This document shows positions 9,880 to 15,176 of a DNA stretch of 35,654 nucleotides, piece after piece (within the stretch, counting starts at the first letter, position 1; each line of letters starts with the position of its first letter). The notes under the pieces were generated by a model. It saw only the letters and a program-made list of their open reading frames with translations. It was not told where the DNA came from and searched no databases. Location: assembly GCA_021325035.1 (NCBI GenBank), contig JAJPHW010000091.1, positions 1-35,654 of the forward strand, given 5' to 3'. The DNA comes from Terriglobia bacterium (GTDB lineage Bacteria > Acidobacteriota > Terriglobia > Terriglobales > Acidobacteriaceae). Made by a program: the position numbers and the translations under genes.

Positions 9880-10596
9880 ATGACTGCTCCCATTTTCAAA
9901 CGCATATTGCTCAAGCTCTCCGGTGAAGCGCTGGCGGCCGACCAGGGTTTCGGCGTTGACACAGCGCACATCCACGCAATCGCCGCGGAAATTGCCGACG
10001 TTCGCGCCTTGGGGATCCAAATTGCCATCGTCGTCGGTGGGGGCAATTTCTTTCGCGGCGTAGCACAACAAGCCAAAGACATGGACCGCGTTTCCGCCGA
10101 CCACATGGGCATGTTGGCAACGGTCATTAACGCACTCGCCTTGCAGGATGCGCTCGAAAAACAGGGCGTCTATACGCGAGTAATGTCGGCCATCGAGATG
10201 AACCAAGTGGCGGAGCCGTTTATTCGCCGCCGTGCCATTCGCCATTTGGAAAAGGAACGGGTTGTGATTTTTGCCGGAGGCACGGGCAATCCTTATTTTT
10301 CAACTGACACCGCCGCCTCACTTCGCGCCATGGAAATCAAGGCTGACGTCATCCTCAAAGCTACAAAAGTGGATGGCATCTACGATGCCGATCCCATGAT
10401 TGTGCGCGACGCCAAGAAGTTCTCCCACATCACTTACATGGATGTGCTGAAAAAAGGACTCAAGGTGATGGACTCCACGGCCATCTCCCTCTGCAAAGAC
10501 AATAACCTTCCCATTGTCATCTTCAATCTGAACGAAAGCGGCAACATCAAGCGAGTCGTAACCGGAGAGAAGATCGGGTCTCTAGTTAGCGCGTAG
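9880..10596 (+). CDS. pyrH: UMP kinase
   Basis: The enzyme phosphorylates UMP to UDP with ATP in pyrimidine nucleotide synthesis. The 238-residue amino-acid-kinase fold shows [12 protein letters not shown] at the N-terminus, [10 protein letters not shown] (phosphate loop), [16 protein letters not shown] and [13 protein letters not shown] (nucleotide-binding segment). The ATG at 9880 gives the normal family N-terminus. The frame is open further upstream but that part overlaps tsf and its terminator, so it is excluded. In most bacteria frr follows directly; here a minus-strand four-gene unit separates them. Confidence 0.96.
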
Positions 10597-10618: not shown

Positions 10619-11308
10619 TTAAAGATTGCTTCCCGACAAAACCTGTATTCGCTTGTATGCGCTGGCGAAGCGGACTCGCACCATCCAGAAAATCAACATA
10701 ACGAGCGGCAAGATCGCCGGAATCATCAGCACGCTGGATTGTTGCAACCAAAGCGGAAATACCTTGGTGCCTTGTCCCAGGAAAAATGACCCTGAGGCGA
10801 TGAACAATCCGAAACACATGCGCCAAAGATGACGTGAGATGCGCTGCACTCCAGAAACGCCTCGCAGAATCATACGAAGATCTCCCGCAGCAGCAAGCAG
10901 CATGATGGAACCCATGAAGATGTCCATGCCGGGAAGGACTCCGGCTTCCGTCGCCATTTTGCCGGTAATAACCGCGTATGCATGGGCCAGACTGAGAACG
11001 CCAATAGCAAATGCCACCAGAAAACCAACCCAATCGAAAATATTGCTCTCGCTATTCCTGCGTCTGGCAGTCAACCATGCTGTCGAAATCATGTAAAGCG
11101 TAAGAATGCCGCCGCCGACATTGTTCGGCTGGTGTTTCATGATCGCCAGAGGAATGGCGCTGGCGGCCATGGTCATCATCGCGATGACGAAAACATTTCC
11201 TGATTGCGCGTGGCGGCGAGATCCTTTGCGATAGATCATCGCCGCAGTTCCCGACAGAATCCCAATGATGCCCGCCGAGATATGAAGAATGAGCAATGGC
11301 AATCGCAT
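10619..11308 (-). CDS. Polytopic membrane protein, DUF2306-like
   Basis: The 229-residue protein has about seven hydrophobic segments. The first begins right after the start (LLILHISAGIIGILSGTAAMI), followed by a short basic loop (YRKGSRRHAQSGN). This arrangement, with HISAG in helix 1 and K-G-x-x-H-x-x-x-G-x-x-F in the first loop, is typical of the DUF2306 family of unknown function. H-L-W-R-M in a later helix also fits. AAGGAA precedes the ATG. It is the last gene of a probable operon with the zinc-ribbon protein (18-nt gap), anti-sigma factor and sigma factor. Confidence 0.7.
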   Translation of the reverse strand: MRLPLLILHISAGIIGILSGTAAMIYRKGSRRHAQSGNVFVIAMMTMAASAIPLAIMKHQPNNVGGGILTLYMISTAWLTARRRNSESNIFDWVGFLVAFAIGVLSLAHAYAVITGKMATEAGVLPGMDIFMGSIMLLAAAGDLRMILRGVSGVQRISRHLWRMCFGLFIASGSFFLGQGTKVFPLWLQQSSVLMIPAILPLVMLIFWMVRVRFASAYKRIQVLSGSNL

Positions 11309-11326
11309 ATTTCTGTTCCTTCTCGA

Positions 11327-11830
11327 TTACTGCGCAGCCTTATTGCCCTGCGTTGTTCCGCAGTAGGGACAATACGTATCGCCAGCGCTAACAATTCGCT
11401 GACACTGTGGACAGCTCGGACTCAATTTGTAGTTGCAACCTGGACAGAAATTGAATCCCGGCTGAATCGCATTTCCACATTGCGGGCAAGAACTGGGCAG
11501 AGGTCTTCGGAGAACAAAATAGAGAAGAAGCCCAATGCCGTTGGGAACACAAATGGCAATAATCGTCCATAACGTTGGACTCATACCGCGGCGCTTGGCA
11601 TCGCGATTTACGTAGCCGATTAAGGCGAACAGGCAGACCGCACCGATTCCAGCTAACAAGCCGAGCAGAAAGCGTCCCCAAGCCGGAGGGCATTGCGTTT
11701 GGTGAACCATTTCGAAATTAAAAAACCACTGCGCAGCGATGAACGCGATCGAGGCCAGCGCCCACGCCCACGCGGGGATAATTCTTAGGTGCGACTTAAA
11801 TCCTGTTTGAGTTTCGCTCTTAACCTGCAT
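11327..11830 (-). CDS. Membrane-anchored double zinc-ribbon protein
   Basis: The 167-residue protein has three predicted membrane helices at about 17-38, 53-73 and 87-107. The third lies in a cardiolipase_N-like stretch (DAKRRGMSP, then VPNGIGLLLYF). A C-terminal double zinc ribbon has eight cysteines in four CxxC pairs: C115/C118, C129/C132, C140/C143 and C154/C157. The ribbon should face the cytoplasm. Function is not recognised. Such ribbons bind zinc and often mediate protein contacts. Its place 24 nt after the anti-sigma gene suggests it belongs to the same regulatory unit, which is an inference. Confidence 0.75.
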   Translation of the reverse strand: MQVKSETQTGFKSHLRIIPAWAWALASIAFIAAQWFFNFEMVHQTQCPPAWGRFLLGLLAGIGAVCLFALIGYVNRDAKRRGMSPTLWTIIAICVPNGIGLLLYFVLRRPLPSSCPQCGNAIQPGFNFCPGCNYKLSPSCPQCQRIVSAGDTYCPYCGTTQGNKAAQ

Positions 11831-11854
11831 AAAGGTTTCTCCGCTTTCTTAATC

Positions 11855-12325
11855 TCAATGCTTTTCTTCGTCGTGGCTTAAATGCGTACCGCGAGCGAGA
11901 AGCAGAACACTCGCAGCCAATGCCGGCACAACACAAAAGAATGCAAAACCTGCCTGCCAAACTGAATTGGAGACGCCAGCCTGCTCCCCCATCCAGGCAA
12001 AGAGCCGCCATAAAAGAGGCGCCGTTAGCGCGGTGGAAACTCCTACGCCGACACAAGCCATCCCCACGAGCCACATACGCTCGCGGGCCTCGCGCAGCCG
12101 GGCAGCATGGAACCGCACCCTCATTTGTGTGGCGCGCACTAATCGGGAGTCGGCAGCAATAGGCTCAGAACGCAAGGCGCGAACTACTTGGCTCGCTGCT
12201 TCCTGATAATTACGACACACACCGCACTCGTTCAGGTGTTTCCCCAGCGCAATTTGCTGTGCATCCGAAAGGCTGTCAACCAGTGCGATCCACTCGCGCG
12301 CTTCATCATGTGTGTTCCGCGTCAT
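11855..12325 (-). CDS. Anti-sigma factor with zinc-binding (ZAS) domain
   Basis: The 156-residue protein has an H-x3-C-x2-C motif (H30, C34, C37) in a helical N-terminal domain, the mark of zinc-binding anti-sigma domains. Two hydrophobic segments follow, at about 84-113 and 121-145, then a short tail with several His/Glu/Asp. It should hold the preceding ECF sigma factor at the membrane. Its ATG overlaps the sigma stop (shared ATGA at 12322-12325), so the two are translated together, as expected for a sigma/anti-sigma pair. The signal it senses is unknown. Confidence 0.85.
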   Translation of the reverse strand: MTRNTHDEAREWIALVDSLSDAQQIALGKHLNECGVCRNYQEAASQVVRALRSEPIAADSRLVRATQMRVRFHAARLREARERMWLVGMACVGVGVSTALTAPLLWRLFAWMGEQAGVSNSVWQAGFAFFCVVPALAASVLLLARGTHLSHDEEKH

Positions 12326-12882
12326 GCTTGCATTCCCCCCAAATGCCCCATCAAGAGATTGAGGCCTCGATACAGCCGTGATTTCACCGTACCCACTGGC
12401 GCGCTGGTGACTGCGGCAATTTCATCCAAAGTCATACCTTCCTGAAAACGCAGCACCACCGCCTCACGATATTCCACCGGGATATTCACCAATGCCGAGT
12501 TAATGCGCTCGGCCTGCTCATGCTGGGCAACAACCTCCCATGCCATCGGACGCGGGTCGGGTGGTTCGAAGGGCGTGTTGTCTTCGTTCTCCATGAGCCC
12601 ATCAAGGCTTACAGGATTTTTCTTTCGAAAATAATCGATGACCAAGTTGCGTGCGACGGCATAGAGCCACGTGCTGAATTCCCGCTGTCCGTCATATTGG
12701 TGGCCGCGCTCCAGCACGCGAATCCAGGTCTCCTGGAAGAGATCTTCGGCCAACTCACGATTGCCGGATAGATGGATCAAATAGCGCAGCAGCCGGTGCT
12801 GATACTGCTCAATGAGACGATCCAAGAGGTCTGGGTCGCGCAGGCGAAGACCGCGAGCAATGGTGCTGGCTTCGGATTCCAT
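12322..12882 (-). CDS. ECF-family RNA polymerase sigma factor
   Basis: The 186-residue form has sigma region 2 at about residues 20-90 (LAEDLFQETWIRVLE, then STWLYAVARNLVIDYFRKK). An acidic linker follows, then region 4 at about 128-180 (PVEYREAVVLRFQEGMTLDEIA, then VGTVKSRLYRGL). It directs core polymerase to a small regulon, probably including its own operon. The start is uncertain: ATG 12882 is chosen because region 2 follows normally. ATG 12915 or the longer open frame to 13011 are possible, none with a clear ribosome-binding site. It heads a minus-strand unit of four genes. Confidence 0.9.
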   Translation of the reverse strand: MESEASTIARGLRLRDPDLLDRLIEQYQHRLLRYLIHLSGNRELAEDLFQETWIRVLERGHQYDGQREFSTWLYAVARNLVIDYFRKKNPVSLDGLMENEDNTPFEPPDPRPMAWEVVAQHEQAERINSALVNIPVEYREAVVLRFQEGMTLDEIAAVTSAPVGTVKSRLYRGLNLLMGHLGGMQA

Positions 12883-13030
12883 TACACTCACGAAATAATA
12901 AGCTGCGGCGTTCATGCTACCCGATATACGGGCGAGGGGCGAAAAAAGATGCAGAGCGGGAAATATTCGTCCACGAGACGGTAAGCCATTGATATTCGAC
13001 CAGATATTCACTAAGCTTTGTATGCTGATG

Positions 13031-13087: not shown

Positions 13088-13675
13088 ATGGCGCAATCCA
13101 TCATGGCTGGGCTGCCTGGCCTGAAAGACACTTACGTTCAACTGAAAACCCGCATGGATAAGGCGGTGGAAGACTTCCGCAAGGCGATGGCTGCGACCCG
13201 TACAGGGCGCGCCTCGGTGCACATGCTCGATGGGGTAATGGTCGAAGCTTATGGCGATCGTATGCCCCTTAATCAGGTGGCACAGGTGCATGCGCCGGAG
13301 CCACAGTTGATCACAGTGCAACCGTATGATCCGACGGTGCTTCCTGCAATTGAAAAAGCAATACGCTCGGGCGAACTGGGCCTGAATCCCATGAATGACG
13401 GCAAGATGATCCGCGTCCCGGTGCCGCCGCTCACGGAAGAGCGCCGAAAAGACATGGTGAAGCATTTGAACAAAATCCTGGAAGAACATCGCACTGCGGT
13501 TCGGAACATCCGGCGCGATGGTAACGACGCCATCAAGAAAGCGATGAAGGACAAGAAGATCTCCGAGGATGACGAAAAACGTTCAATGGAAGAGATCCAA
13601 AAACTGACGGACGACGAAATCAAGAAGATGGAAGAGATGAGCAAAGGCAAAGAAAAAGAAGTGATGGAGATTTAA
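13088..13675 (+). CDS. frr: Ribosome recycling factor
   Basis: RRF, with EF-G, splits post-termination ribosomes. The 195-residue protein has the three-helix-bundle signatures ATRTGRASVHMLDGVMVEAY, PYDP near residue 79, and VPPLTEERRKDMVKHLNK. It also has the late helix RNIRRDGNDAIKKAMKD. ATG 13088 follows CGGAG by about 9 bases; an alternative ATG at 13103 would still leave the domain whole. It usually follows pyrH, and here the sigma/anti-sigma unit intervenes, so frr has its own promoter region. A perfect 10-bp hairpin lies 38 bases after the stop. Confidence 0.97.
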   Translation: MAQSIMAGLPGLKDTYVQLKTRMDKAVEDFRKAMAATRTGRASVHMLDGVMVEAYGDRMPLNQVAQVHAPEPQLITVQPYDPTVLPAIEKAIRSGELGLNPMNDGKMIRVPVPPLTEERRKDMVKHLNKILEEHRTAVRNIRRDGNDAIKKAMKDKKISEDDEKRSMEEIQKLTDDEIKKMEEMSKGKEKEVMEI

Positions 13676-13799: not shown

Positions 13800-15176
13800 A
13801 TGAAACGCACTTTTGCAGTTTTCTTTACACTTGCGCTGACAGCGCTGACCTTGGCTTGCGGCGGAGGCACCTCGACCAGCTCTTCTGGCAGTGGGGCTTC
13901 CCAAGGCTCGATGTTCATCACTGGCGAGGATGCCCCGTTGCCTTCCGTCGTCTCGTTTAACATCACCATTAACAGCATTACTTTACAAAATAGTTCGACA
14001 ACCGTGACCGCGCTTTCCACGCCGACCACAGTGGACTTCGGCCGATTGGTCGGTTTGCGCTCATTGCTGGGCTTTAACACGATCCCGGCGGGTAAATACA
14101 CGAGCGCGACGTTTACTCTGGCGAATCCTGTCATTTCCTACGTGGACATGACGCAAAATCCTCCAGCGCTGACGCAGTTAAATGGCACACTCACCACCTC
14201 AACGGTGACAGTGGCTTTCCCGCAAGCGATGGTTGTAACAGCGAACGGATTGGGCGGCTTGCACATGGATTTCGATCTACGCCAGTCACTGGCAACCGAC
14301 TCTAATGGCCAGATTACCGGCCAAGTGAACCCCACGATAGACATCATGGCGGTCTCGGCATCGGACGAAGAAGGCGAGATCACCGATTTCACCGGCAACG
14401 TGATTTCGAGCAATGCTTCCTCGAATAACTTCACCATGCAAGGGCCTTACGGATTTCAGGAAGTCGTTGATGTCAACTCCTCCACACAATTCAACGGAAC
14501 CTACGGAATTGGCAGCATACCGTCGGAGGCTATTGTTTCGGTTGAAGGGACGGTCCAGGCCGATGGCAGCATTCTTGCCAAGCTCGTCGAAGTGATTACA
14601 ACCGACGAGGCCTTCATTTCCGGTCGCGTTCTGGCCATCAACCCAACAACTGGCCCCGTACAGACCGTAACGATGTATGTGGGCGAAGAGCTCAATACGA
14701 ACGGCGTTATTCCGGTTGATACAGTGCAAACCATTGACTTGAGCGCCGTCACGCAATACGACGTGTGCTTCTTCGATAACTGGTTTACTACTCTTCTGTT
14801 CAACAATTCATCTTTGGTAGTTGGGCAACGCATCTTCATCGGCGGTACGGTGGATACGACCAGCAATACATTCGTGCCCGATATGGTTTCGTTGCGCCGT
14901 CAAGGAACGATCGGCACGCTAGTTGGAAACAGCGTGAATATTGTGAGTGGAAACCAGGGCAACTTCCAGCTGAGCAACAATGGATTGCTGGAGTACTCCG
15001 CGAATGGACCATTCACAGTACAGACAGGCGACCTGACGCTCTTCCTGAACGTCAACGGATTGTCTGGATTGCAATCAGCGGGTTCAGCTAATGTGCTGGC
15101 GCGCGGAATTGTCCTTAAGGACCCCAATACCGGCCTGCCGCAGATCTGGGCTCACCGAGTACGGGTTCTGCAATAA
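13800..15176 (+). CDS. DUF4382/DUF5666-type lipoprotein
   Basis: The 458-residue exported protein has a lipoprotein signal ending L-T-L-A-C, with lipidated C20, followed by a Ser/Gly-rich linker (residues about 24-36). The N-terminal part (GSMFITGEDAPLPSVVSFNITINSI) matches DUF4382. Later repeated beta-rich modules (DFTGNVIS, GTVQADGSILAKLVEVI, ISGRVLAI, GTVDTTSNTFVPDMV) match DUF5666, a small-barrel domain of unknown function. It is probably anchored in the outer or inner membrane facing the periplasm. Such lipoproteins are frequent in acidobacteria. AGGGAG precedes the ATG and a strong terminator follows the stop. Confidence 0.85.
   Translation: MKRTFAVFFTLALTALTLACGGGTSTSSSGSGASQGSMFITGEDAPLPSVVSFNITINSITLQNSSTTVTALSTPTTVDFGRLVGLRSLLGFNTIPAGKYTSATFTLANPVISYVDMTQNPPALTQLNGTLTTSTVTVAFPQAMVVTANGLGGLHMDFDLRQSLATDSNGQITGQVNPTIDIMAVSASDEEGEITDFTGNVISSNASSNNFTMQGPYGFQEVVDVNSSTQFNGTYGIGSIPSEAIVSVEGTVQADGSILAKLVEVITTDEAFISGRVLAINPTTGPVQTVTMYVGEELNTNGVIPVDTVQTIDLSAVTQYDVCFFDNWFTTLLFNNSSLVVGQRIFIGGTVDTTSNTFVPDMVSLRRQGTIGTLVGNSVNIVSGNQGNFQLSNNGLLEYSANGPFTVQTGDLTLFLNVNGLSGLQSAGSANVLARGIVLKDPNTGLPQIWAHRVRVLQ

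Follow-up and report, generated by a model that had tools for sequence, protein, structure and literature searches.

We analysed a 35,654-nt stretch of DNA (the window), which lies on contig 79 of a 3.9-Mb assembly in 232 contigs from a Terriglobia bacterium. Almost all of its relatives in the genome collection belong to the Acidobacteriota. Four ORFs lie on its minus strand between pyrH (ending at 10596) and frr (starting at 13088). In the direction of transcription, they encode an ECF sigma factor, a small membrane protein hereafter called the middle protein, a membrane zinc-ribbon protein, and a DUF2306-like protein (Table 1). The coordinates bear out the layout given in the initial annotation, with a 4-nt overlap between the sigma and middle genes, followed by gaps of 24 nt before the ribbon gene and 18 nt before the DUF2306-like gene.

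Table 1. Features of the sigma factor locus, in window coordinates
Feature	Position	Strand	Basis or detail
Candidate ECF-type promoter	12926..12953	-	-35 TGCATC, 17-nt spacer, -10 CGTAT; placed 10 nt ahead of the sigma start codon
ECF sigma factor, 197 aa	12322..12915	-	Sigma70_r2 E 1.1e-19, Sigma70_r4_2 E 1.3e-12; PDB matches SigE, SigW, SigH
Predicted membrane-anchored zinc anti-sigma factor (ZAS type), 156 aa (middle protein)	11855..12325	-	Profile, fold, and ligands (H6/H30/C34/C37); two TM helices
Membrane zinc-ribbon protein, 167 aa	11327..11830	-	DZR E 1.8e-11; N-terminal helices; structural model
DUF2306-like multi-TM protein, 229 aa	10619..11308	-	18-nt gap; GAGAAGGA upstream of the ATG

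The product of the first gene has only regions 2 and 4, with both Pfam domains (Sigma70_r2 and Sigma70_r4_2) above cut-off, and reaches 106.9 bits for NCBIfam sigma70-ECF against a cut-off of 42.9. For a named ECF subgroup (e.g., SigY or SigW), none of the NCBIfam equivalogs listed reaches its cut-off. Judging from these domains, the protein is an ordinary ECF sigma factor. We moved its start from 12882, as initially annotated, to the ATG 11 codons upstream (12915). In the nearest relatives, these 11 codons are open, in frame, and conserved as MNAxAYYF, with no change in length, and in alignments more distant homologues begin at that position too. Since one-base length differences occur upstream of 12915, the DNA there is non-coding in the clade of the window.

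Taken alone, the middle protein of the window has no match in Pfam. A profile built from 21 of its relatives matches the anti-sigma domain of RsiW (E 1.8e-5) and, weakly, ChrR (E 0.11), and 19 of these relatives match zf-HC2 at E ≤ 0.05. The AlphaFold model of the protein (pLDDT 85) has three N-terminal helices and a long fourth helix. Residues 3 to 54 superpose on PupR with Z 5.3 and residues 2 to 57 on ChrR with Z 3.5 and 26% identity, Z values in this range being weak on their own, and Foldseek alone returned no match at E ≤ 0.001. H30, C34, and C37 are invariant in the 21 members and H6 is present in at least 90% of them, which is the (C/H)n-H-x3-C-x2-C ligand pattern of zinc anti-sigma (ZAS) domains, and both fold and sequence agree with a ZAS three-helix domain. 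On this evidence, the middle protein of the window is a zinc anti-sigma domain carried on two TM helices, with inhibition of the sigma factor as its predicted function. The H-x3-C-x2-C motif is shared with RsiW of the RsiW/SigW pair (PDB 5wuq), whose zinc ligands are C3, H30, C34, and C37, the last three being numbered as in the middle protein (PMC5358783). RsiW, with the same kind of zinc motif, is insensitive to oxidation (PMC5358783). While RsiW has one TM segment, the middle protein has two, and a third gene accompanies it; because only a short loop lies outside the membrane, the protein has no obvious sensor domain. A zinc anti-sigma domain is also found in ChrR of the ChrR/SigE pair (PDB 2z2s), and ChrR is soluble.

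The ribbon protein consists of two long helices, a PLDc_N-like segment (residues 67 to 109), and a double zinc ribbon with eight cysteines in its two ribbons (residues 115 to 158). The double zinc ribbon is above the Pfam cut-off, while PLDc_N is sub-threshold in the protein of the window; 13 of 21 family members have a Pfam match to it. Since the last hydrophobic stretch is arginine-rich on both flanks, the ribbons would be in the cytoplasm. A search of plasmids for the ribbon protein gave no match. In one genome, two ribbon genes are found as a tandem pair (G065:C5:303928-305008).

Searches of 150 same-family genomes used three queries (the ribbon, DUF2306-like, and anti-sigma proteins), and 60 stretches, mostly of 10 to 17 kb, were opened. 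Triad loci were collected via the ribbon protein, and sigma pairs without a ribbon partner lie outside this sample. In 48 of 48 same-family loci opened with a ribbon protein, the ribbon gene is preceded by an ECF sigma gene in the same orientation. There is room for a 2-TM middle protein in every one of these loci, with a full-length recognised ORF in all but one. The ribbon profile was also run over 297 Acidobacteriota genomes for relatives in other families and classes, where the order sigma, small membrane protein, ribbon was found in 16 of the 17 loci opened. Since the order is kept both within the family and in other families and classes, the trio is old in the phylum. These findings show that the conserved module comprises three genes, not four, in an order that is overwhelmingly beyond chance. 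A membrane-signal module had been proposed initially, in which the zinc anti-sigma factor and the membrane zinc-ribbon protein were joined by the DUF2306-like protein. The first two are well supported as parts of such a module, co-occurring with the sigma gene family- and phylum-wide, while the DUF2306-like part of the proposal fell away: in our genome survey, adjacency to the sigma pair was confined to this genome for the DUF2306-like gene but not for the ribbon gene. No description of the trio was found in the open-access literature searched; the main ECF reclassification lies outside that scope, and the group may already be numbered. An Acidobacteriota-type triad is also carried by a record titled Betaproteobacteria (L010), by transfer or in a mislabelled bin.

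The fourth protein does not reach the cut-off of DUF2306 (PF10067), with 18.1 bits vs. 31.6, and a search of the whole genome at E ≤ 1e-3 gave no DUF2306 match. Its gene is probably co-transcribed with the triad here. The initial view that all four genes act as one functional unit, with the DUF2306-like protein supplying the input signal, would fit the common strand, the 18-nt gap with its ribosome-binding-like GAGAAGGA, and the fact that no terminator-like site was found between the ribbon and DUF2306-like genes. However, the 150 same-family genomes contain about a dozen good DUF2306-like relatives, none of which adjoins a triad (0 of 12 opened), and in the nearest triads the ribbon gene is followed by DUF4386 (two genomes), a CPBP/Rce1-like protease (one genome), or no comparable gene. 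We therefore rejected a four-gene module, and a functional unit of this kind is very unlikely. The best reading of the comparison is that the DUF2306-like gene is a local addition and a recent passenger that lies outside the conserved unit in an arrangement seen only here, and it fits a pattern of changing passengers after the ribbon gene. One DUF2306-like relative (L148, 7837-9217), in a locus that lacks a ribbon gene, is followed after ~330 nt by a different ECF sigma gene, which is probably a coincidence.

The position of the unit between pyrH and frr is likewise local to this genome. That it is an insertion, as claimed initially, is real, because the two flanking genes adjoin each other in 11 of the 14 relatives that have an frr match. 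No other triad among the same-family loci opened is flanked by pyrH and frr, and a conserved association of the unit with this site was rejected, the site being seen only in this genome among those examined. The commonest context, found in many relatives, places the triad between a divergent rlmB-type methyltransferase gene and a LytTR response regulator gene. The latter often lies 3' of the ribbon gene and in the same orientation (L119, L122, L125, and ~15 others). A decaying relocated copy, degenerate or silent in this genome, might be suspected from a unit that is the only one seen inside pyrH-frr and runs antisense to an essential gene cluster, but its ORFs are all intact, its zinc ligands are all present, its promoter is exact, and its base composition resembles the surroundings, which makes decay highly improbable.

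The consensus TGCRTC-N17-CGTAT precedes the sigma gene and is strongly conserved in the clade of the window. In the extended form TGCRTCTTT-N14-CGTAT, all 14 specified bases are present in 19 of 34 zinc-type loci and 10 to 13 of them in 14 more, while among base-shuffled copies 10 or 11 matches are rare and 12 do not occur. From the distance to the ATG, the operon mRNA is expected to be nearly leaderless. Within the 3.9-Mb genome, the only exact match is the copy before the sigma gene. When up to two mismatches were allowed, there were 43 matches vs. 48 in a reversed control, which is background, and the near-matches that were opened (the single one-mismatch case and one with two mismatches) both lie inside coding frames. 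We therefore rejected a wider regulon, for a scan that presumes a near-exact motif in the targets and that degenerate targets escape. Across the 150 genomes, an exact shorter pattern had 54 matches, about 16 of them at triads. Among the 30 exact matches opened, those with a gene start 12 to 13 nt downstream all precede sigma genes, and there is only one other plausible promoter. In that case (L214, ~1501-1800; G083:C101:2136), a second copy of the promoter, joined to ~17 bases from the 5' end of the sigma gene, is placed 64 nt upstream of a further predicted multi-TM gene without a Pfam match, and it looks like a captured sigma-dependent promoter. Because the only exact genomic match of the conserved promoter precedes the sigma gene, autoregulation is indicated, and we infer that, among targets that keep such a motif, the sigma factor switches on its own operon and little else.

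The zinc anti-sigma domain is not universal among triads. Both the HxxxCxxC motif and the complete N-terminal domain are missing from the middle protein of 20 same-family loci, which form one group, with a single loss on the sigma plus ribbon tree (SH-aLRT 99). A profile of the zinc-type tail matches all 20 shortened proteins with 17 to 58 bits, shuffled copies reaching at most 8.2, and by this measure they are truly homologous to the C-terminal part of the zinc-type proteins. Short proteins without the motif also occupy the middle position in five distant loci (L259, L260, L262, L263, and L267) and one of the same family (L156), where kinship is by position only. The 20-locus clade keeps the sigma factor, the membrane part of the middle protein, and a ribbon protein with eight cysteines. 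No triad examined, all having been found via the ribbon protein, has lost this protein, though the zinc anti-sigma domain was lost. If sigma is still held in check in the domain-less clade, either the leftover juxtamembrane helix or the ribbon protein must restrain it. CnrY-type minimal anti-sigma factors act without a zinc three-helix bundle and offer a possible model for the first option, the likeness being one of description only. As to the second, because domain-less middle proteins occur in one clade and several distant lineages in which the other parts are kept, the ribbon protein itself might be the main anti-sigma factor or sensor, and thus a new kind of ECF regulator, an idea we regard as doubtful. 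This natural loss of the anti-sigma domain, with the other parts kept, lets one ask what minimal membrane apparatus restrains a sigma factor.

In the domain-less clade, the sequence upstream of sigma has GTCTT and CGTCT at the same spacing as the promoter elements. We do not claim them as a promoter, as the stretch can also be read in frame as a conserved N-terminal extension. In L116, L120, L122, L127, L128, and others, the sigma frame runs ~27 codons further upstream and encodes a conserved amphipathic peptide, e.g., MSPIEKVQNFLSKRVFG, which overlaps the promoter-like motif.

Taking the conserved unit as a whole, we favour, with a probability of about 0.55, a three-gene, membrane-tethered, positively autoregulated ECF switch in which the ribbon protein is a co-anti-sigma factor, as in SigM-YhdL-YhdK. 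In Bacillus subtilis, the anti-sigma of SigM is made of YhdL and YhdK, two membrane proteins that are encoded in the SigM operon and are both needed for full inhibition, and loss of yhdK raises the SigM regulon about 100-fold (PMC6827917). That system and the triad share an ECF sigma factor, a membrane anti-sigma factor, and a second membrane protein in the same order in one operon, which is autoregulated for SigM (PMC6827917) and, in the triad, conserved in 48 of 48 and 16 of 17 loci. The two differ in phylum, and their likeness is one of gene order, not of a sequence comparison with YhdK or YhdL. YhdK is not known as a zinc-ribbon protein. In the SigY operon of B. subtilis (sigY-yxlC-yxlD-yxlE-yxlFG), too, the sigma gene is followed by small membrane regulators, among them PLDc_N-type proteins, a segment that recurs in the ribbon family. 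It differs in that it is not known to encode zinc ribbons and in that an ABC transporter follows.

In the switch that we favour, the anti-sigma factor would hold the sigma factor at the membrane, and the ribbon protein would sit in the same complex, with its ribbons in the cytoplasm, as an obligate co-anti-sigma factor like YhdK with YhdL. It is gene order that points to contact of the ribbon protein with the sigma or anti-sigma factor. An envelope or membrane signal would loosen the complex, and sigma would then transcribe its own operon, which would raise the levels of sigma, its inhibitor, and the ribbon protein alike, and of the product of any downstream membrane gene. In this genome, the unit would have moved between pyrH and frr, and the DUF2306-like gene would have come into the output position. 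Alternatively, sigma and the zinc anti-sigma factor may be an ordinary pair and the ribbon protein their output, a conserved effector of the autoregulated operon. As this operon is the one that carries the sole exact promoter copy of the genome, its products are the leading candidates for the output, and the downstream membrane genes vary among relatives (DUF4386, CPBP/Rce1-like, and DUF2306-like). This alternative deserves to be taken seriously but is the less probable one, as every triad retains the ribbon protein, even where the middle protein has lost its recognisable anti-sigma domain; that same retention suits a ribbon protein in the control complex. ECF sigma factors are one of the main means that bacteria have of sensing their own surface, and the Acidobacteriota, abundant in soil, are difficult to culture and have been little studied. 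A phylum-wide sigma unit with a membrane zinc-ribbon partner is a concrete and testable case.

Beyond the unit, between frr and the BamA gene, the window encodes a 458-aa predicted secreted, lipoprotein-like protein (13800-15176), relatives of which are found in the same place after frr in two other genomes, G111 (L276) and G006 (L269).
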